Source of the DNA: Paludibacteraceae bacterium
GTDB taxonomy: Bacteria; Bacteroidota; Bacteroidia; Bacteroidales; Paludibacteraceae
NCBI GenBank assembly: GCA_017962085.1
Contig: JAGCWA010000045.1
Span: forward strand, 1 to 45,967
DNA length: 45,967 bases
Direction of reading: 5' to 3'
Shown here: positions 36,541 through 45,967 of the stretch, piece after piece
Position numbering within the stretch: the stretch's first letter is position 1
Layout of the letters: each line of letters opens with the position of its first letter
Position numbers and translations under genes: made by a program
Notes under the pieces: model-generated
The model's database searches: none
The model's input: the letters and a program-made list of their open reading frames with translations, nothing else
What the model was told of the DNA's origin: nothing

Positions 36541-38496
36541 TTATTTTCCGATGATAAGGATTTCCGTCCGTCGGTTTAGCGCCCTGCCCGCATCTGTTTT
36601 GTTGTCTGCGATCGGTTGCTCCGCTCCGAATCCCTGGTATTCCAGCCTGTTGGTTGGTACCCCCTTCTTGACGAGGTATTCGTAGGCAGCCTTGGCTCTG
36701 TCGTTGGAGAGGGTCATGTTGTATTCCTTGGTACCCTTGTAGTCGGTATGTCCGCAAAGCTTGATCCTTACGGTCGGGTTCTCCCTCATGAATTGGGCGA
36801 CACGGTTCAGCTCGAAGTGGGAGGCTTTTTTCAGGGTGGCCTTGTCGAAGTCGAAGAAGATGTTCTTTAGCGTGATCTTCTTGCCCACCTCGATTCTCTC
36901 CATTCTTACGTTATTGTCCTTGGTGAGGTCCACTTTCTTGGAGGATTTGTTCGTGCTGTTTCCCTGTTGTGAGGAGCCTCCGAAATTGTCCGAGAAGAAG
37001 AGATAACCCTTCTTGCTCACGTTGACGCCGTACTCCTCGTCGCTTGGCACGCAGGCGATGAATTCTCCGCTCTCCTTGTCCGAGACGGAGCGGAAGATGG
37101 TGCGGTTGCTGGTCGTTCCGTAGACGTCGATGGTGGCCTGCATAGGTTGTTTCTTGTCGGCGTCCACGATCTTACCCGTCGCATATTTCATCTTTTGGGC
37201 AGGTCTCATATTCCCTTCCGCCAAGGTGAGTTCATAGATGTCCCTTCCCTTCCAGTTCTTTTCCTGTCCGTCGGAAGAGAAGTAAGCTTTGTCACCGTAG
37301 GCGTTCACCACGAAGCCCGTTTCGTCCTTGCAGGTGTTGATAGGGTAACCGATGTTTTTGGGAGTGCTCCACTTCCCCTTTTCGTCCCTGTAGGTGACGA
37401 AGATATCATGTCCGCCCATACCCTTCCTTCCTTTGGAGGAGAAGTAGAGGGTGTGGTTATCCGCGTGGATGAACGGGGAGAGCTCATCCTCCGGCGTGTT
37501 GACGGTCGGTCCGAGGTTGACGGGCTCTGAGAACTTCAGTCGTCCGTCCTGTTGTATCTCCACGCGGCAAGCCCAGATGTCGCATTTCCCTTGTCCGTTA
37601 GGGCGGGTGCTGGCGAAGTAGAGGACGTCGCCTGTAGGGCTAAGCGATGGGGAAGTTTCCCAATGGCGGGTGTTGACGGGCGCTCCGCAGTTGATGGCGG
37701 GCGTCCAACCCTTTCCTTCATGGATGGAGTAGTAGATGTCGCAACCGCCCATTCCGCCTTGGCGGTCGCATGCCACGAAGAACATGTATCGTCCGTCCAG
37801 GGAGATGCTCTGAGCCCCTTCGTTGCCTATGCTGTTGATGGATTGTCCGACGTTTTGGGCGGTGCCCCAAGCCCCATCCTCACGTTTGCTGAGGTAGATA
37901 TCCTCGTGGATGCCCCGTCCGAAGTCCGACTGGCCTTGTCGTTTGTTCAGTTTCCGGGTGAGGGAGAAGTATCCCTCGTTGGCGGTCAGGCTGGGCCAGT
38001 ATTCGTCGAACTCCGTGTTGATGGCGTTGCCCATGTTGCGGAAGTTGAAGGGAACGGGTTCCTGCTTCAGCTCCAAAGCGTCCTCGCACTCCTTGATGCC
38101 CGCTTGCGCCCGCTTGTAGTAGGTGGTCTCAGAGGTGGGTATGAGTTGGTATTGCTTGATGGCGTTCGTGTAGTCGCACAGACCATGGTAGGCGCCGGCC
38201 AGACGCATGACCGAGTTGTAGTAGCGAGGCATTTTAGGCTTGGCTACGTTCGCCAATGTGGCGATTTGCTTCTCGCTGTCGCACATTCTCGAATAGAGTT
38301 CCGCCAGTGTCCACGAGGCGTCCACGAACTCCTTGTTGGAAGTCACCAACCCTTTGAGGAGGGGAAGCGCCTCTTTGTATTTCCCTTCGTTCATAAGGAT
38401 CACCGCGGTCTCGTAGGTCTTGATGTCTTTCTTGCTTTGCCCCCACATCGTGGCGCAAAACGCGGAGAGGAGGATGGCTATGATTATTTTTTTCAT
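36541..38496 (-). CDS. PorE-like OmpA-family protein (TPR, beta-propeller, carboxypeptidase-regulatory-like and OmpA domains)
   Basis: This 651-residue protein has a signal peptide (1-19, MWG-QS), TPR-like helices (about 22-145), five PD40-type propeller blades (about 165-430, with repeats such as ISLDGRYMFFVACDRQGGMGGCDIY and LYFSSKGRKGMGGHDIF), a carboxypeptidase-regulatory-like beta domain (about 440-510) and a C-terminal OmpA domain (about 540-651). The OmpA part has FDFDKATLKKAS and the peptidoglycan-binding LSNDRAKAAYEYL and NRRTEI segments. This order is the one described for PorE (PG1058) of Porphyromonas gingivalis, a periplasmic, wall-bound part of the type IX secretion machine. PorE is a lipoprotein, while here no clear lipobox is seen, and other OmpA proteins share parts of this layout, so I call it PorE-like only. 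A -7 box (TATCTTTG) lies at 38526-38519. Confidence 0.85.
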   Translation of the reverse strand: MKKIIIAILLSAFCATMWGQSKKDIKTYETAVILMNEGKYKEALPLLKGLVTSNKEFVDASWTLAELYSRMCDSEKQIATLANVAKPKMPRYYNSVMRLAGAYHGLCDYTNAIKQYQLIPTSETTYYKRAQAGIKECEDALELKQEPVPFNFRNMGNAINTEFDEYWPSLTANEGYFSLTRKLNKRQGQSDFGRGIHEDIYLSKREDGAWGTAQNVGQSINSIGNEGAQSISLDGRYMFFVACDRQGGMGGCDIYYSIHEGKGWTPAINCGAPVNTRHWETSPSLSPTGDVLYFASTRPNGQGKCDIWACRVEIQQDGRLKFSEPVNLGPTVNTPEDELSPFIHADNHTLYFSSKGRKGMGGHDIFVTYRDEKGKWSTPKNIGYPINTCKDETGFVVNAYGDKAYFSSDGQEKNWKGRDIYELTLAEGNMRPAQKMKYATGKIVDADKKQPMQATIDVYGTTSNRTIFRSVSDKESGEFIACVPSDEEYGVNVSKKGYLFFSDNFGGSSQQGNSTNKSSKKVDLTKDNNVRMERIEVGKKITLKNIFFDFDKATLKKASHFELNRVAQFMRENPTVRIKLCGHTDYKGTKEYNMTLSNDRAKAAYEYLVKKGVPTNRLEYQGFGAEQPIADNKTDAGRALNRRTEILIIGK

Positions 38497-38529: not shown

Positions 38530-38670
38530 ATTTGAATTAAGAATTAAGAGTTAAGAGTTAAGAATTCTATGCGATGCTCGTAACCCAGCCCTGAAGGGGC
38601 GTGACAAATATAGCCTGGGGCAACGCCCTAGGGAATTAAGAATTAAGAATTTTGAATTTTGAATTTTTGG
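38530..38670. repeat. GAATTAAGAATT / GAGTTAAGAGTT repeats around a hairpin element
   Basis: Runs of GAATTAAGAATT and GAGTTAAGAGTT (38533-38567) and of AATTAAGAATTTTG (38633-38668) flank the first palindromic element. They belong to the same simple repeat family as 4529-4559 and 27785-27840. Confidence 0.6.
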
Positions 38671-38844
38671 GAGTGCGCATTTCTACACGATGCGCAAACC
38701 CCAAGCCCCAACGGGGCGACATCCCCCAGGCAGGGGTGTCAACCCCTGTGTGAAATGGTGCGTGTGTGTGGGAACCCTGAAAGGGTGACACGTGAAAATT
38801 AAGAAACGTCGGTTCGGCGTAATTGATTAATAATTGACGACGTT
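38587..38844 (+). repeat. Cluster of palindromic elements in the gene-free stretch before the adhesin gene
   Basis: The cluster contains hairpins at 38588-38600 (GCCCT-GAA-GGGGC), 38614-38632 (8-bp stem, AAC loop), 38674-38696 (TGCGCAT stem), 38705-38717 (GCCCC-AAC-GGGGC), 38731-38748 (CAGGGGT stem), 38774-38786 (ACCCT-GAA-AGGGT) and 38805-38844 (AACGTCG stem). Three of them are followed by GACA. No reading frame of note lies in 38497-39171; the remainder is AT-rich leader sequence of the adhesin gene. Confidence 0.65.
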
Positions 38845-38926
38845 TTGGCGCGTTTTTGGGACAAAATAGTGTAATTTCCCCTTAAAAGAGTTTTTTTTCG
38901 TCCTAAACCCTTAATTTTCCCGCCTA

Positions 38927-38961
38927 TTTGCTTGGCTTTTCCCTTTTTTTTCGTACCTTCA
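38927..38961 (+). promoter_or_regulatory. Candidate promoter of the adhesin gene
   Basis: TTTG (38927-38930), a spacer of 23 bases and TACCTTCA (38954-38961, two differences from TAnnTTTG) would give a leader of about 200 bases. A further -7 box, TATATTTG, stands at 39077-39084 without a -33 partner. Confidence 0.4.
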
Positions 38962-39171
38962 TATTCTGAATACTGTTGTCAAGTTGCGAAAAACCGTTAG
39001 GAGTTTTTAAAATTCCGAAAGAAAGGTTAATTTCGCGGCTTGGAGCAATGTATTAGAAACAAAGTATATAAGTAAGTATATTTGAAGTATAGTGATGTGT
39101 GTTTCCTTCAAGGATGGGATGATGTGTCTTTTCAATGATAGGGAACAGCGTTTATTTGAATTGAATAGTTG

Positions 39172-42100
39172 ATGGATAATTTTATACATAAATTTTGGGA
39201 TATGGGTGTGATAGGAAGGAGTTGTGTGTCGGGACTCAAGCGATGTGTATGTTTTTGCCTGTTGCTTGTCTTCTCGGTGTCCATGGCGCATGCTGCTATT
39301 GTGATTCAACGTACGGGCGCTTCGTATAGCACTTTACTTGACGCTGTCAACGCTTCCCAAAATAATGATGTATTGGTGCTGACTTCCAATACGAATTTGA
39401 CAAATTCGAATGGAGATGCAGTTACTATAGACAAAACTTTAGCAATCCGTGGTAATGGATATTCCATAGTTAGAAACAACACAAGAAGTACACTTAACAT
39501 ACGAAATACTTTATCCGTACAGAATCTTACATTTAATGGAAATAATCTAACATCAAATAGTATATCTACGTATTTTATTTCTTTGGCAAAAAATGGAAAT
39601 AACACAGGAAGTCTCATTATGGATAATTTATCATCCATAAAAAACGTAGATGGTTCCCCTGCTGTATATTTAAACAATGGTTGTGTATTAATGGGAGGTG
39701 TTGTTGAAAATAATACAAACAATAGTAGTAAGCAAGGAATTGTTTTTATCAACAACAAGGACTATTTAATTAATGTAATTATTAGAAATAACACTATTAA
39801 TGCGAGTGATAATGCGACTGCAGTTGTATATATGTCTCAAAACGGAGGAAATTTAATTAATTGTTTGCTGTATTCAAATAAGAAAGGCAATGATACAAAA
39901 CAAAAGTCTGCTGTTAGGGTCTCGTCCAATTGTAACATCATCAATTGTACAATTGTAGATAACAATGGATTGTATGGCGTTAAGTCTGACAATGCAAATT
40001 CCAAAATTTATAATTCAATAATCTATGGCAATACATATGGTGTTTCTGGAAGTTATATAAAATCAAATTCTTGTATCCAAGGGGGTAATACAAACGACAA
40101 CTGCATCAACTCCAATCCACTCCTAAATGCCGACTATACTTTATCAGACAATTCGCCTTGTGTGGATGCAGGTGGTAATGGATACTACAACACATCCACA
40201 TATGGAAACGAGGATTTGGCAGGCAATCATCGTATTGAAGATGTCATCGATATGGGTGCATACGAGTTGAAAAAACTCCCACTTTGCGAAGTGAGGATTC
40301 AAGCGAATAAGACAGCGGATGTGCGTTGGGGCGATTGGATCGAATTTTCTGTCGAAAATGAAGGGGCTGTAAATATACGGGATGAATTCCAATGGCAGGG
40401 TAGCTTGGATGGTCATACGTGGACGGACATTTCTGGTGCGACGCTGGATGAACTTAAAACACAGGTCAAGAACGATTCTCCTCTGCTTTATCGTATGCAA
40501 ATCACAAGAAATAACGATGTTTGCTATACTAATGTCATCTCCCTTTCGCTTGCACCATGCAGCATATCATATGAGTTGGTGGGCCCAAGTGTGCGTAAAT
40601 TGAGCGATAAAGTCTACGAGGTGCAGGCGGGTTCGTCGTTCTCCGTCAAGATTAACAGTGTGAATGCCACCATCACTTCCGCTTCCTTGGAGAAAAAATT
40701 GTTGCAAAGGGAAGTCCTTGGCACTGCAACCGTTGCTGACCGTGTGGATGCCACCGGCAGCTGGTATTTCGACTTTAATAATTTGGATGATAGTTATGAT
40801 CTGAAACTTAGTTATAACTCAGATTGCGGCAGCCTAAGCAATCGATCCTTTATTGTTCGTCCGATTTATCAGTGTACGTCTACAAACTCGGAAGTGATAT
40901 GGTTCGATAATTTTGGAGACATCAGTAGCAGTAGAGGTCAATATACATATACTGATTACTCTAATCCGAATAACCTTGTAACCAGAACGGTCAATGCGGA
41001 TAGCCGTTCGTGCGACGGAGAAAATTTCTATTCTGTTAAGGATTACCAAAATGCGGTGGTGGAACATGCCTATGGGTACACATCCAGCTATGGGCACAGT
41101 GGTGATGGTGATGTGCAGGATGGGCACTATGCCATTTTGGAAAACTCGATCTATTCCATGTGTGGATCCCGGGATCAGACGGGAAATTTTGCGGATCATA
41201 CAACGGGACGTGGTGCCATGCTATTTGTTAATTTTGCGAAAAATTCCAGAAACACAAAAATATATCGCCGTCCTTTCTCTGTGAAATGTGATGATGCGTA
41301 TGTGATTATATCAGTTTATATCGCGAATGCGAACAAGTTGGTGAATGCGACATGGGAACAGCAGGCGGCCTTAGAGGAGGTGAACCTCCGTATGGATATC
41401 CGTGATGGAGTTGCGACGAATGCTCCAATTGTGGCGCGTGCGTACACAGGTAACATTCAAAGCCGTGATGCTTGCCCTGAGTGGCATAACTTATCCGCTC
41501 GTTTCAAAGCTCAAAAGGGACACACTTATTATTTGGAGTTGACCAACAATAAGAATGGTGGTGCGGGAAACGATGCCTTGATCGACGATATCTCCATTAC
41601 GGTTTGCTATCCGGAGGTGGCGGTCTCCGATAAGCCTGACTATGTGCTGGACGCTCCAAGACATTTGGATATTTGTGGTAGACGAAGTACGGAAGCCACA
41701 CTGTATGTTAACAGTGCGGAGGATGTCAGCAAGTTTTATGACACACCGACTTATCTGTTTCAATATGAAGAATCGGACGGTGTGTGGAAAAATTTGGACA
41801 CAGTTCCGCCAGTCTTCTCAACGGAGGATCATTATACCATCAGCACTTCGGATGCACGTTTGTCGAATGGAATGAAACTCCGTGCTTTTGTGGCGAAGGA
41901 TAGTGTGGATATCAGCTCTGTCATTGCTTATTACAATTCGCATAATAAAACATACCCTGATCCTACTTGCGACTTGCTATATGGTGTCTTTACGGGCTAT
42001 ACGGTCTCGTTCTTCCCTGGCATGGGTAGTCTCGACAATGTTTTGCAGGCTGCCTGTCCGTCGGATATTGTGACGTTAGAATCGGAGGGAGGAGCTGGAT

Positions 42101-45100
42101 TTGTCGAGTTCCAATGGTATGATAAGGATATGAACATGATAGAGGGTGCGACGACATCGTCATATAGTTTTGAGATGGGGAAAACGACCCAGACATATAT
42201 CCTTGTTGCTTCTGCAGAGAATAATGTCTGCCCAGATACCGCTGTCTATCGTACGTCATTGAAGCGGGATGTTTCTCTGATTTGCTCGGATACGACACTA
42301 TATTCGGAGTCGAATGGTTGCTTTGCGGATTATGAACTTAAACTCCCGGATGTGTTGGTTTGCGGTGCGGAATATATTTCGTATAAGTATAGAAAGGACC
42401 CTTCTTCCGCGTTCGTGGACTACGTGAATGGCGCACATCTTACTGTAATGGACGGCGATGATATAGAATGGTCCGTGATAGTGGATGGAGACGCAAGTTT
42501 GGCGGATATGTGCACCCAGCATGTAACCGTTGTGGATACGGTTCGCCCTGAGGTCCCGACTTTCGGAGATGTGCAGGCCTTGATGTCTGGAGACTGTCAA
42601 TATGAAATCCCTGATCTAAGGGATTTGGTTTTGGCTAGTACGACTGACAATTGCGAGGTGGACGAGTCATATTTTGTACAGAGCCCAAGTGCGGCATCTT
42701 TGTATCCTCAAACATCTTCCGAACAACGGGTTGATGTTTCGGTTGAAGTGAAGGATGTTTCGGGGAATATCCGTATGGCTACTATTACTGTGGTGATCCC
42801 TGCAAATGAACTTTTGGCGAAAGCGCCAGACGATGTCTCTGTCTGTCGGGGAGCGTCGGTCCTTTTGTCCTCAGAGGTGGAGAACCCTAATGGTGATGTG
42901 TCTTATGTTTGGAGTAATGGTTCAACTTCTAAAGACATTACTGTGTCACCAAACACAACGACTACCTATGAGGTGACGGTGACTGATGCGAATGGTTGTA
43001 CATCTTCAGATGATGTGACGGTGACGGTTAACCCATTGGTTGAACTCTCGGCGACGAATCTGGTGCAGACGGTCTGTGTGAATGTCTCCATCATGGATGT
43101 TGTCATCACTTCTGCTAACGCTATAGTGACAACAAACACTTTGCCGATTGGTTTGACGTTCAGCAACGGCAGAATTAGTGGCACGCCGACTACACCAGGA
43201 AATTATTCGGTTACCATTACCGCTAATAGCGATCAGATACCAGCCTGTGAATCGAAAACCTTGACGTTCAGCTTGGTAGTAAACCCTTTGCCAACATTTA
43301 GTGCCACGAAAACGGATGTTCTTTGCAAAAATGATGGGAATGGCTCAATTTCAGTCCTCTCCACCAGTGGCTCGATGCCATGCCAATATTCGATAGATGA
43401 TGGTGATAATTACCAACTGTCAAATGTATTTAATGACTTGGTGCCTGGCTCGTATGGGGTTAAGATAAAAGATGGGAATGGTTGTGAATCCAATACTTCT
43501 TCGATTTCTATCACAGAACCGAATGCTTTGTCTGTCTCTATTTCTGCCCCGGAGGAAGGTTGTCCTAATAGAGAATACTCGTTTAATGCTCTTGTGACAG
43601 GTGGAACGACTCCGTACGTATACCAATGGTCAGGTGATCTTTATGGTACGAGTAGCTCTGCCGTTTTGTCAACGGTGAAAGAGTGTAAAAGTTATTCGGT
43701 ACGATTACATATAGAAGACGCCAACGGATGCGTGGCGAATGCTTCTGATGTGACGTTCACAACGGTGGATGCGGTGGCGCCGACGATTTCAGGCACCCTC
43801 GCACCAATCACGGTGACGGGTTGCGGTCAGTCGGACGTGCCTGCTGCGACGAACACGATAGCCTATCTGACAGCCAATGGATTGACTATCTCGGACAATT
43901 GTACCGCTAATGCGGATCTGACGGTTACTTCGTCGGATGCGGCCATGACGGGCACCTGCGCGAAGACAGTCATCCGTACCTATACGGTAACGGACAAGTG
44001 CGGCAACTCCAGCACGGCGACACAGACCATCACGGTAAATATCGATGCGACCATCACGATGACGGGCGGCACAAACAACAAGACGGTGGAGTGCTTGGCG
44101 GATGTGGTGGCACCTGATCAACTGACACCGAGCGTGATGCCGACGGTGACGGACGCCTGCGGTACCCCGTTGGAGAACCCTGTCTATGTCAGGACACCGA
44201 ACATCAGCGGTTGCGAGGGTACAGTGACCTACACGTACACCTACATGAACTGTGATGGGAAGAGCCGTGATTGGACCTTCACCTACACGGTAAAACACAG
44301 TACGGCGCCGAAGGAGGAGGGTACGCCTGTATCCACATCCAGCACAGTGCAGTGCTTGGCTGATGCCACCGCACCTACAACGTTGCCGGTGGTGAAAGAT
44401 GTCTGCGGCAACACGCTGACGGCACCTGATCCAGTGGTGACGGACAATCCTGCGTCGCTGACCTGCGAAGGTACAAGAACCTATACCTACACGTATGAGG
44501 ATTGCGCGGGCAAGACGTTCGTTTGGGTCTACACCTACAATATCGAGAAGAACGCACCGGTCATCGCATCGGAAGGCTACGCAACCTCATCGTACATCAC
44601 CTGCATAGACGAGGACATCACTCCGACGTCGGCTATGATTCCTTCCGCAACGAACAGTTGTGGGGAGGTTGTCACCCCAACCATGGTACGCACCACGGAC
44701 TGGAGCGGCGGCAAGGAGAACTGCACCGGCAAGATCATCTATACTTATACCTACACGGACTGCGGAGAGAGCAGCGTCTGGACGTACACCTACAACCTGA
44801 ACGACAACGTGAAGCCGACGTTCAACGCTATCTCACCGTTGACCGTGAACTGTAGTGCGGCGGATAGGGATGCAACCATCTCGGCATGGTTGAACGGAGT
44901 GACGGCGACGGACAACTGCGGCACACCGACAGTCACCAACAACTACGCATCACTCTCCTTGCCGGCAAGCGGATGCGGCACAGTGGAGGTGACCTTCACG
45001 GCCACGGACGCCTGCGGCAACACCAGCACGACGACGGCCGACATCGTTGTGGAGGACAATACGGCCCCTGTCATCGGCGCAGTGTCTGACCTCACACTCA

Positions 45101-45967
45101 CCTGTGACGACACAGAGAACGACACGAAGATCACCTCTTGGCTGAACAGCGTGACCGCCACGGACAACTGCGGAGCGGTTACCCTGACGAACAACTATAA
45201 TTCCGCGAGCCTGCCGACGAACGGCTGCGGCACGGTGACAGTGACCTTCACGGCTGCGGACGAGTGCGGAAAGACCAGCACGGCTACGGCCAACATCATC
45301 GTGGAGGACAAGACGGACCCAGTCATCAGCATAGTCTCTAACCTTACACTCGCCTGTGACGATACGGAAAACAACACGAAGATCGCCACCTGGCTGAACA
45401 GCGTGACCGTCACGGATAATTGCGGGCAGGTTACCTTGACGAACGATTATGACGCAGCGAGCCTACCGACGAATGGTTGCGGCACGGTGACAGTGACCTT
45501 CACGGCCACGGACGCCTGCGGCAACACCAGCACGACGACGGCCGACATCGTTGTGGAGGACAATACAGCCCCTGTCATCGGCGAGGTGTCTGACCTCACA
45601 CTCGCCTGCGACGATACGGAAAACAACACGAAGATCGCCACTTGGCTGAACAGCGTGACCGCCACCGATAATTGCGGGCAGGTTACCTTGACGAACGATT
45701 ATGACGCAGCGAGCCTACCGACGAATGGTTGCGGCACGGTAACAGTGACCTTCACGGCTGCGGACGAGTGCGGAAAGACCAGCACGGCTACGGCCAACAT
45801 CATTGTGGAGGATGAGACGGCCCCTGTCATCAGCACAGTCTCTAACCTTACACTCGCCTGCGACGATACGGAAAACAACACGAAGATTGCCACCTGGCTG
45901 AACAGCGTGACCGTCACGGATAATTGCGGGCAGGTTACCTTGACGAACGATTATGACGCAGCGAGCC
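39172..45967 (+). CDS. Giant secreted modular adhesin-like protein, 3' end outside the window
   Basis: One frame stays open from the ATG at 39172 to the window edge (2,265 codons). An in-frame ATG at 39202 is an alternative. A signal peptide ends near MAHA-AI (about residue 41). A right-handed beta-helix domain follows (about 45-365), closing with VIDMGAYE, as in choice-of-anchor Q proteins. Next come Ig-like parts, a jelly-roll-like domain (about 565-820, ending LIDDISITVCYP), further Ig-like parts, a PKD-like module (WSNGSTSKDITV, about 1245), a putative Ig module with GTPTTPGNYSV, an SprB-like module (CKNDGNGSISV, about 1383) and then four-cysteine HYR-like repeats from about residue 1530 to the edge. 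Such build-up is typical of Bacteroidota surface adhesins, often type IX secreted; the C-terminal sorting domain that would prove it is not visible. Confidence 0.9.
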   Translation, partial: MDNFIHKFWDMGVIGRSCVSGLKRCVCFCLLLVFSVSMAHAAIVIQRTGASYSTLLDAVNASQNNDVLVLTSNTNLTNSNGDAVTIDKTLAIRGNGYSIVRNNTRSTLNIRNTLSVQNLTFNGNNLTSNSISTYFISLAKNGNNTGSLIMDNLSSIKNVDGSPAVYLNNGCVLMGGVVENNTNNSSKQGIVFINNKDYLINVIIRNNTINASDNATAVVYMSQNGGNLINCLLYSNKKGNDTKQKSAVRVSSNCNIINCTIVDNNGLYGVKSDNANSKIYNSIIYGNTYGVSGSYIKSNSCIQGGNTNDNCINSNPLLNADYTLSDNSPCVDAGGNGYYNTSTYGNEDLAGNHRIEDVIDMGAYELKKLPLCEVRIQANKTADVRWGDWIEFSVENEGAVNIRDEFQWQGSLDGHTWTDISGATLDELKTQVKNDSPLLYRMQITRNNDVCYTNVISLSLAPCSISYELVGPSVRKLSDKVYEVQAGSSFSVKINSVNATITSASLEKKLLQREVLGTATVADRVDATGSWYFDFNNLDDSYDLKLSYNSDCGSLSNRSFIVRPIYQCTSTNSEVIWFDNFGDISSSRGQYTYTDYSNPNNLVTRTVNADSRSCDGENFYSVKDYQNAVVEHAYGYTSSYGHSGDGDVQDGHYAILENSIYSMCGSRDQTGNFADHTTGRGAMLFVNFAKNSRNTKIYRRPFSVKCDDAYVIISVYIANANKLVNATWEQQAALEEVNLRMDIRDGVATNAPIVARAYTGNIQSRDACPEWHNLSARFKAQKGHTYYLELTNNKNGGAGNDALIDDISITVCYPEVAVSDKPDYVLDAPRHLDICGRRSTEATLYVNSAEDVSKFYDTPTYLFQYEESDGVWKNLDTVPPVFSTEDHYTISTSDARLSNGMKLRAFVAKDSVDISSVIAYYNSHNKTYPDPTCDLLYGVFTGYTVSFFPGMGSLDNVLQAACPSDIVTLESEGGAGFVEFQWYDKDMNMIEGATTSSYSFEMGKTTQTYILVASAENNVCPDTAVYRTSLKRDVSLICSDTTLYSESNGCFADYELKLPDVLVCGAEYISYKYRKDPSSAFVDYVNGAHLTVMDGDDIEWSVIVDGDASLADMCTQHVTVVDTVRPEVPTFGDVQALMSGDCQYEIPDLRDLVLASTTDNCEVDESYFVQSPSAASLYPQTSSEQRVDVSVEVKDVSGNIRMATITVVIPANELLAKAPDDVSVCRGASVLLSSEVENPNGDVSYVWSNGSTSKDITVSPNTTTTYEVTVTDANGCTSSDDVTVTVNPLVELSATNLVQTVCVNVSIMDVVITSANAIVTTNTLPIGLTFSNGRISGTPTTPGNYSVTITANSDQIPACESKTLTFSLVVNPLPTFSATKTDVLCKNDGNGSISVLSTSGSMPCQYSIDDGDNYQLSNVFNDLVPGSYGVKIKDGNGCESNTSSISITEPNALSVSISAPEEGCPNREYSFNALVTGGTTPYVYQWSGDLYGTSSSAVLSTVKECKSYSVRLHIEDANGCVANASDVTFTTVDAVAPTISGTLAPITVTGCGQSDVPAATNTIAYLTANGLTISDNCTANADLTVTSSDAAMTGTCAKTVIRTYTVTDKCGNSSTATQTITVNIDATITMTGGTNNKTVECLADVVAPDQLTPSVMPTVTDACGTPLENPVYVRTPNISGCEGTVTYTYTYMNCDGKSRDWTFTYTVKHSTAPKEEGTPVSTSSTVQCLADATAPTTLPVVKDVCGNTLTAPDPVVTDNPASLTCEGTRTYTYTYEDCAGKTFVWVYTYNIEKNAPVIASEGYATSSYITCIDEDITPTSAMIPSATNSCGEVVTPTMVRTTDWSGGKENCTGKIIYTYTYTDCGESSVWTYTYNLNDNVKPTFNAISPLTVNCSAADRDATISAWLNGVTATDNCGTPTVTNNYASLSLPASGCGTVEVTFTATDACGNTSTTTADIVVEDNTAPVIGAVSDLTLTCDDTENDTKITSWLNSVTATDNCGAVTLTNNYNSASLPTNGCGTVTVTFTAADECGKTSTATANIIVEDKTDPVISIVSNLTLACDDTENNTKIATWLNSVTVTDNCGQVTLTNDYDAASLPTNGCGTVTVTFTATDACGNTSTTTADIVVEDNTAPVIGEVSDLTLACDDTENNTKIATWLNSVTATDNCGQVTLTNDYDAASLPTNGCGTVTVTFTAADECGKTSTATANIIVEDETAPVISTVSNLTLACDDTENNTKIATWLNSVTVTDNCGQVTLTNDYDAAS
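44050..44808 (+). repeat. Three degenerate 84-residue Tyr/Thr-rich modules in the adhesin
   Basis: Modules start near 44050, 44302 and 44551. Each has the order C(L/I)..., a (D/N)xCG, a C.G....YTYTY, a DC.(G/E) and a W.(Y/F)TYN-like end. They diverge in sequence at most other positions, so they are older duplications than the repeats after 44809. Confidence 0.75.
44809..45967 (+). repeat. Tandem 252-bp repeats in the adhesin (4.6 units to the edge)
   Basis: Units begin at 44809, 45061, 45313, 45565 and 45817, exactly 252 bases (84 codons) apart. Each encodes four cysteines in the settings C(D/S), DNCG, NGCGTV (SGCGTV in the first) and D(A/E)CG. The units from 45061 on are very similar, the last one cut by the window edge. 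Subtypes alternate: 45061 and 45565 share VIGxVSDLTL and ADECGKTSTATANI; 45313 and 45817 share VISxVSNLTL and VTVTDNCG. Confidence 0.93.

Follow-up and report, generated by a model that had tools for sequence, protein, structure and literature searches.

How can a gene be nearly identical in two species over one part of its length and differ at almost half of its bases over another? The gene that raises this question appears to encode a giant, modular surface protein and stands at the right edge of contig JAGCWA010000045.1 of Paludibacteraceae bacterium GCA_017962085.1. The entire contig (C21, 45,967 nucleotides) is called the window here; the genome it comes from, of 59 contigs and 3.37 Mb, is probably a draft metagenome bin. 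The searches covered 16 genomes of its genus (G000, the window genome, to G015), a wider sample of 150 genomes of the family and 14 control genomes. The closest counterpart is found in Bacteroidales bacterium UBA1181 (G001, DBYR01000007.1), a metagenome bin, and the other compared genomes are probably bins as well. Judged from its sequence, the protein is probably a surface adhesin that is exported by the type IX secretion system (T9SS) and has been diversified by recombination between species.

The identity between the window gene and that of UBA1181 is a mosaic. Four-fold degenerate sites were counted only at codons with the same amino acid (aa) and the same first two bases. None of 36 such sites differ in aa 1–74, while in aa 75–370 indels occur and 45% of bases are changed, for which reason a diversity-generating retroelement was set aside as a source of the variation (no retroelement search was made). 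The following region, aa 741–1515, is preceded by aa 441–740 with 86% identity and 24 of 108 four-fold sites changed, and is itself 99.5% identical as protein and unchanged at every four-fold site (Table 1). Past this block, differences are seen again at 9/95 four-fold sites in aa 1516–1680 and 14/47 in aa 1681–1790. The control genes RelA and PorE differ at 96/299 and 103/246 four-fold sites, the 10-kb left flank is 86% identical and SecDF, located elsewhere, 81%. Compared with RelA, the block gives a Fisher p of 9e-40, which is descriptive only, as its limits were picked after viewing the identity profile.

The gene lies next to a divergent PorE-like gene, and the surroundings of PorE differ within the genus. 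A giant adhesin-like frame is present there in six of the 16 genomes (G000, G001, G003, G005, G012 and G013), each time cut by a contig end, and SecDF follows PorE in seven (G002, G004, G007, G008, G010, G014 and G015; in G004 the N-terminal piece of PorE adjoins SecDF on one contig and the remainder is on another). PorE on contig C45 of G006 (L229) adjoins an aroE-like gene, labelled by eye, and neither adhesin nor SecDF, a local rearrangement; in G009 and G011 the contig stops a short way upstream of PorE. Three types of head, the part of the protein ahead of its stalk, occupy the locus: A in the window genome and UBA1181, B in G003, G005 and G013, and C in G012. By blastn the window matches the head B loci at ~85% through the RelA end, PorE and the upstream region to position 39080; past this point no match of at least 120 bases is found until ~aa 1516, where the stalk DNA common to the head B genes begins. 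The first 1,500 aa of head B match in four of the 16 genomes (G003, G005, G013 and, partially and at 40%, G012), with a marginal second place in G003 and nothing in the window genome or UBA1181. Head C is a cut frame of 1,330 codons. In a blastp comparison of seven proteins its start finds no match, while the part after it is 40–46% identical to head B and matches a part of the window protein at 48%.

Head B shows a mosaic of its own. Between G005 and G003, four-fold differences amount to 29/788 in aa 701–2200 and 16/178 in aa 1–400, as opposed to 92/235 in PorE, while aa 401–700 are hypervariable (33–77% identity in 100-aa bins) and identity falls to 51–57% after aa 2300. G013 is nearer to G005 by PorE (58/267), yet their heads B are only ~61% identical. 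Similarly, PorE of the window genome differs from that of G005, which carries head B, at 8.4% of bases, less than the 14.1% that separate it from UBA1181, which carries head A.

Could the gene nevertheless be an ordinary modular T9SS protein, inherited vertically, with the block kept by strong purifying selection and the beta-helix at its N-terminus drifting fast? The window genome does hold many giant frames and many type IX sorting domains, and the block is highly conserved as protein. However, purifying selection at the protein level leaves four-fold differences in place, yet none are seen at 387 sites of the block compared with the 103 of 246 in PorE, and the distribution of head types disagrees with the PorE tree. 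The tested neighbours RelA and PorE do not share the synonymous identity of the block, which largely refutes vertical inheritance and makes it highly improbable.

A source of the putatively exchanged DNA was sought in several places. In the window genome, a DNA search with the gene gave one match, the gene itself, and only weaker paralogues were found at the protein level. Collections of plasmids and phages contained no megablast match, and among viral contigs 30 pattern matches to aa 561–1211 yielded no confirmed relative.

The architecture of the protein points to a surface function. Its N-terminus, read by eye, displays a basic region, a hydrophobic stretch and an AHA-A site. The initial annotation had described a mixture of beta-helix, immunoglobulin (Ig), PKD, SprB and HYR-like modules, opening with a choice-of-anchor-Q-like beta-helix, and the domain searches and structure prediction that it proposed were run. 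In the structure model the coiled short strands match solved beta-helices, with confidence only over the residues given in Table 1. The anchor-Q assignment is less secure, as NF041518 (choice_anch_Q, NCBIfam) scores 21.8 bits over aa 322–366 and 19.6 bits in the UBA1181 protein, both below the cut-off of 25. The He_PIG domain, Big_3_2 (23.4 bits, cut-off 23.3) and HYR_4C (204 bits over six stretches, cut-off 27) pass, so that the Ig and HYR parts of the mixture stand. The SprB family, here a 37-aa repeat, is below threshold in the window protein and above it in the UBA1181 protein (33.0 bits, cut-off 28), where Ig_7 also passes (27.9 bits). PKD did not appear among the matches of the window protein at E ≤ 1, and in UBA1181 it reaches 19.2 bits against a cut-off of 23.5. 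Among carriers of head A, HYR_4C was found in both the window protein and that of UBA1181. A search of the PDB sequences with aa 561–1211 gave a single match, at E = 0.42.

Table 1. Features of the window around the giant gene (positions in nucleotides of the window; aa numbered in the window protein).
Feature	Position	Strand	Remarks
Divergent PorE-like gene (TPR, PD40, OmpA)	36541..38496	-	
Upstream region, ~85% conserved with head B loci	38797..39080	+	blastn
Giant surface-protein gene, 3' end missing	39172..45967	+	open reading frame to contig end
Putative signal peptide, aa 1–41	39172..39294	+	by eye
Right-handed parallel beta-helix	39295..40269	+	model confident at aa ~149–278; putative extent aa ~42–366
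Hypervariable segment, aa 75–440	39394..40491	+	vs UBA1181: 50% aa identity in aa 75–370, 59% in aa 371–440
Conserved region, aa 561–1211	40852..42804	+	no Pfam family over cut-off
Near-identical block, aa 741–1515	41392..43716	+	vs UBA1181: 7/2,325 nt and 0/387 four-fold sites differ
Ig_7-like domain, aa 1221–1288	42832..43035	+	23.2 bits, below Pfam cut-off of 27.3
He_PIG Ig domain, aa 1316–1371	43117..43284	+	31.6 bits, cut-off 24
SprB repeat, aa 1378–1413	43303..43410	+	23.3 bits, below cut-off of 28
Stalk DNA common to head B genes at the same locus, aa 1516–1792	43717..44547	+	blastn, 84–88%
HYR_4C domains	43882..44796	+	four places over cut-off in genome-wide search; 0/14 controls match
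252-bp (84-aa) HYR-type tandem repeats, ~4 copies	44970..45967	+	run into contig end

Instead of binding, the beta-helix might act as a secreted enzyme, a lyase or epimerase of polysaccharides, since alginate lyases, epimerases and pectate lyases are among its top fold matches. Related rumen Bacteroidales, moreover, form a family with T9SS-linked, secreted multi-modular carbohydrate enzymes, as described in passages of PMC5831590, which do not name UBA1181. The same list of folds holds phage tailspikes and other beta-helix proteins equally, and a divergence of ~50% inside a near-identical scaffold would better fit a binding surface. An enzymatic role is thus considered unlikely.

Type IX sorting domains abound in the window genome. 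Por_Secre_tail has 73 matches, 70 of them over the cut-off and two with a stop inside the frame, and CHU_C has 26, with 25 over the cut-off; two of the 14 controls match the former (one over the cut-off) and none the latter. In such a genome the window protein is probably exported by the type IX route. The adjacent PorE-like protein scores 307 bits against the PorE family (cut-off 600) and 301 against the CHU_0125 OmpA family (cut-off 620). In view of the PorE–PorP complex with type B cargo described in PMC9143113, its position is suggestive of a partner of the putative adhesin, not proof of one.

The same context raises the question of whether the protein is a gliding adhesin of the SprB kind, bearing a type B sorting domain and propelled along the cell surface. 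SprB-like repeats and the CHU_C-associated Ig_7 repeats, the abundance of CHU_C in the genome and a near-threshold GldB would agree with this. GldB, the only gliding gene tested, scores 185.9 bits against a cut-off of 190, and one of the 14 controls, Bacteroides ihuae, also matches below the cut-off. The PorE-like neighbour can be read either way, as the part of PMC9143113 consulted here describes a PorE–PorP complex with type B cargo, but also postulates that PorE-like-linked cargo is non-mobile. Furthermore, the C-terminus of the window protein is off the contig, and among the relatives scanned the only sorting domain over the cut-off is of type A. Gliding is therefore a doubtful function for this protein. 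What stands of the adhesin proposed by the initial annotation is, by architecture, a modular, exported, adhesin-like giant protein; its attribution to the SprB-type adhesins of gliding Bacteroidota was not established, given the SprB 37-aa repeat, the missing C-terminus and GldB under its cut-off.

The frame itself was correctly predicted to be very long and open at the window edge. On the + strand it runs from 39169/39172 to the right edge, with 2,265 codons from the ATG at 39172 and no stop, and the 6.8-kb open frame is confirmed as real by a length far beyond chance and by the existence of the UBA1181 relative, a frame of 1,887 codons that is likewise cut by a contig end. As the window is the whole contig, its open edge is an assembly end, and the gene is cut because the contig ends inside the 252-bp tandem repeat. 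The array shows 86% matches and 80–96% pairwise identity between copies, and exact direct repeats from 44701 onward reach 79 bp at most. Among the best 40 contig-end pairs listed, 11 share 111 31-mers each, corresponding to ~141 bases if contiguous. Since the visible exact repeats are shorter than this apparent assembly word, the array would be expected to continue beyond the edge with more similar copies.

Extension of the contig to the right, as originally suggested, was attempted by edge and genome searches, and no continuing contig turned up. Several candidates for the missing 3' end were rejected. C43_end (223 aa) resembles the tail of 3,300-aa relatives, but an adjacent frame of 3,115 codons on the same contig has an end 82% identical to it, so it was assigned to that tandem family; C24_start and C29_end, with type B ends, appear by eye to be closer to other cut genes. 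SecDF synteny offers no route, as SecDF follows PorE in the sister clade and is on another contig in this clade. The frame on G010:C158 resembled a complete relative, yet no sorting domain is evident ahead of its stop and, by eye, nothing homologous follows it.

Other giant frames were seen in the window genome. The two on C43 (79341–89469) have C-terminal regions that are 82% identical, and relatives of this end recur in the genus, often several per genome. C3 begins inside an adhesin-like frame of 2,040 codons (1–~6120, L085), whose last 39 residues are also the first 39 of a 1,892-codon frame at the start of C39 (L121). Both therefore seem to belong to a single gene, in which MBG-like and Listeria-Bacteroides-like repeats were named by eye. 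C9 carries, near each other, frames of 8,367 and 8,433 codons (L091, L207, L208), each with a CHU_C match.

Upstream of the window gene, TATATTTG at 39077 resembles a Bacteroidota -7 box. The intergenic segment 38520–38860 resembles dispersed repeats, with 32 and 20 blastn rows in ~1.8 Mb of DNA of the same genome (self-matches included and some stretches counted twice), and part of it, 38534–38665, has four matching places in the DNA upstream of the G003 adhesin-like gene. Such repeats could serve recombination.

Relatives of the protein are widespread. All 16 genomes of the genus match aa 372–1211 somewhere at E ≤ 0.001, and in the wider family sample 32 of 150 genomes match at E ≤ 1e-20, 13 of them from the genus. 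Only the UBA1181 protein is near-identical, with 91% over this 840-aa core, followed by that of G007 at 38%, which also carries HYR_4C and SprB, then by a group at 34–35% and by weaker matches. Four members of this group were read (L202–L205; G001:C29, G003:C7, G005:C14 and G013:C4), and all are closed frames of 3,300–3,375 codons with this identity over most of the 840-aa region; they are located on other contigs than the PorE locus. Unlike in the window protein, neither HYR nor SprB was called in L203, the only one scanned in Pfam. Both full-length relatives scanned in NCBIfam open with choice_anch_Q over the cut-off (L203 32.5 bits, L202 26.6 bits), and L202 ends in a T9SS type A domain (Por_Secre_tail, 23.8 bits, cut-off 23). 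The combination with such a beta-helix, thought at the outset to be possibly new, is thus mostly not so, and a beta-helix start on a giant type IX protein would seem mostly ordinary in this genus.

Several observations weigh against an exported adhesin with exchangeable heads. The C-terminus lies beyond the contig end, hence no sorting domain is seen in the window protein, and in a comparison of 118 edges of the 59 contigs (up to 20 kb each; C6, N throughout, lay outside it) no other edge shares a 21-mer with the last 1,200 bases. L203 has no sorting-domain match at E ≤ 1 in NCBIfam, though by eye its end resembles that of L202. In G012, which carries head C, blastn covers PorE and not the upstream region, so that upstream conservation holds for heads A and B only. 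The structure model of aa 561–1211 is of low confidence (mean pLDDT 29.1). Lastly, with one certain and one probable metagenome bin, both with contigs that break in this gene, the near-identity could be an artefact of assembly or binning, a cross-species chimera. This is improbable because the divergent flanks and beta-helix sit in the same contig: the ~10 kb of left flank on each contig reaches just 86% identity, and inside the gene the identity is 99–100% before the beta-helix, ~50% (protein) in it and 99–100% again from ~aa 741. The pair of G003 and G005 shows a like pattern.

Taken as a whole, the observations are probably best explained by a Sec-exported modular surface protein, which would then pass the outer membrane, probably by the type IX route, with a beta-helix head on an Ig/HYR stalk and cassette-like replacement of heads. 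The stalk would hold a polysaccharide- or surface-binding beta-helix away from the cell, an adhesive function suggested by the architecture. The upstream region and stalk would be retained at the PorE-linked locus, while whole or partial heads would be brought in from other species by homologous recombination, with the beta-helix varying separately inside an otherwise near-identical scaffold. Selection for variety, exerted by ligands, phages, protists or host factors, may maintain this.

The habitat is suggested by UBA1181, which the part of PMC8026616 consulted here, citing Naas et al. (PMC5831590), names as one of the Bacteroidetes bins with mapped proteins from rumen samples; by this link the window organism is probably rumen-dwelling as well. 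More tentatively, the locus may be a head-exchange site in a probably rumen-dwelling Bacteroidales genus, at which the HYR stalk and the upstream region are kept, whole heads of types A and B (perhaps also C) pass between species by recombination, and the beta-helix of A and residues ~400–700 of B are separately hypervariable, changing binding or recognition by phages and protists. If so, species trees tell little about which head a genome carries, and the locus offers a definite starting point for studying how gut bacteria alter their binding to fibre or host and evade phages. Metagenome bins resolve giant, repeat-rich surface proteins poorly, so that their diversity is easily overlooked; in this case, assembly breaks conceal a locus at which species of a single genus seem to exchange surface heads.

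Literature searches on HYR, T9SS and Bacteroidales, on SprB, recombination and choice-of-anchor domains, on giant T9SS surface proteins, on hypervariable adhesin exchange and on Bacteroidetes HYR adhesins returned, among the papers listed, no description recognised as this protein or locus. Two known systems are comparable. SprB of Flavobacterium johnsoniae is likewise a giant repeated surface protein, with SprB-type repeats by family name; according to the portion of PMC9143113 consulted here, it belongs to the type B cargo proteins and is co-expressed with SprF, whereas the 3' end of the window gene and any partner there lie off the contig. Closer in behaviour are the adhesin regions of Kgp, RgpA and HagA of Porphyromonas gingivalis, modular surface adhesins that, in the sections of PMC5266723 available, recombine through domain rearrangement and allelic exchange, are incongruent with the genome phylogeny and contain repeats that break draft assemblies. 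That study concerned strains of one species and some P. gulae, while here the exchange would link separate species and involve heads of ~1,450–2,000 aa built of other domains.
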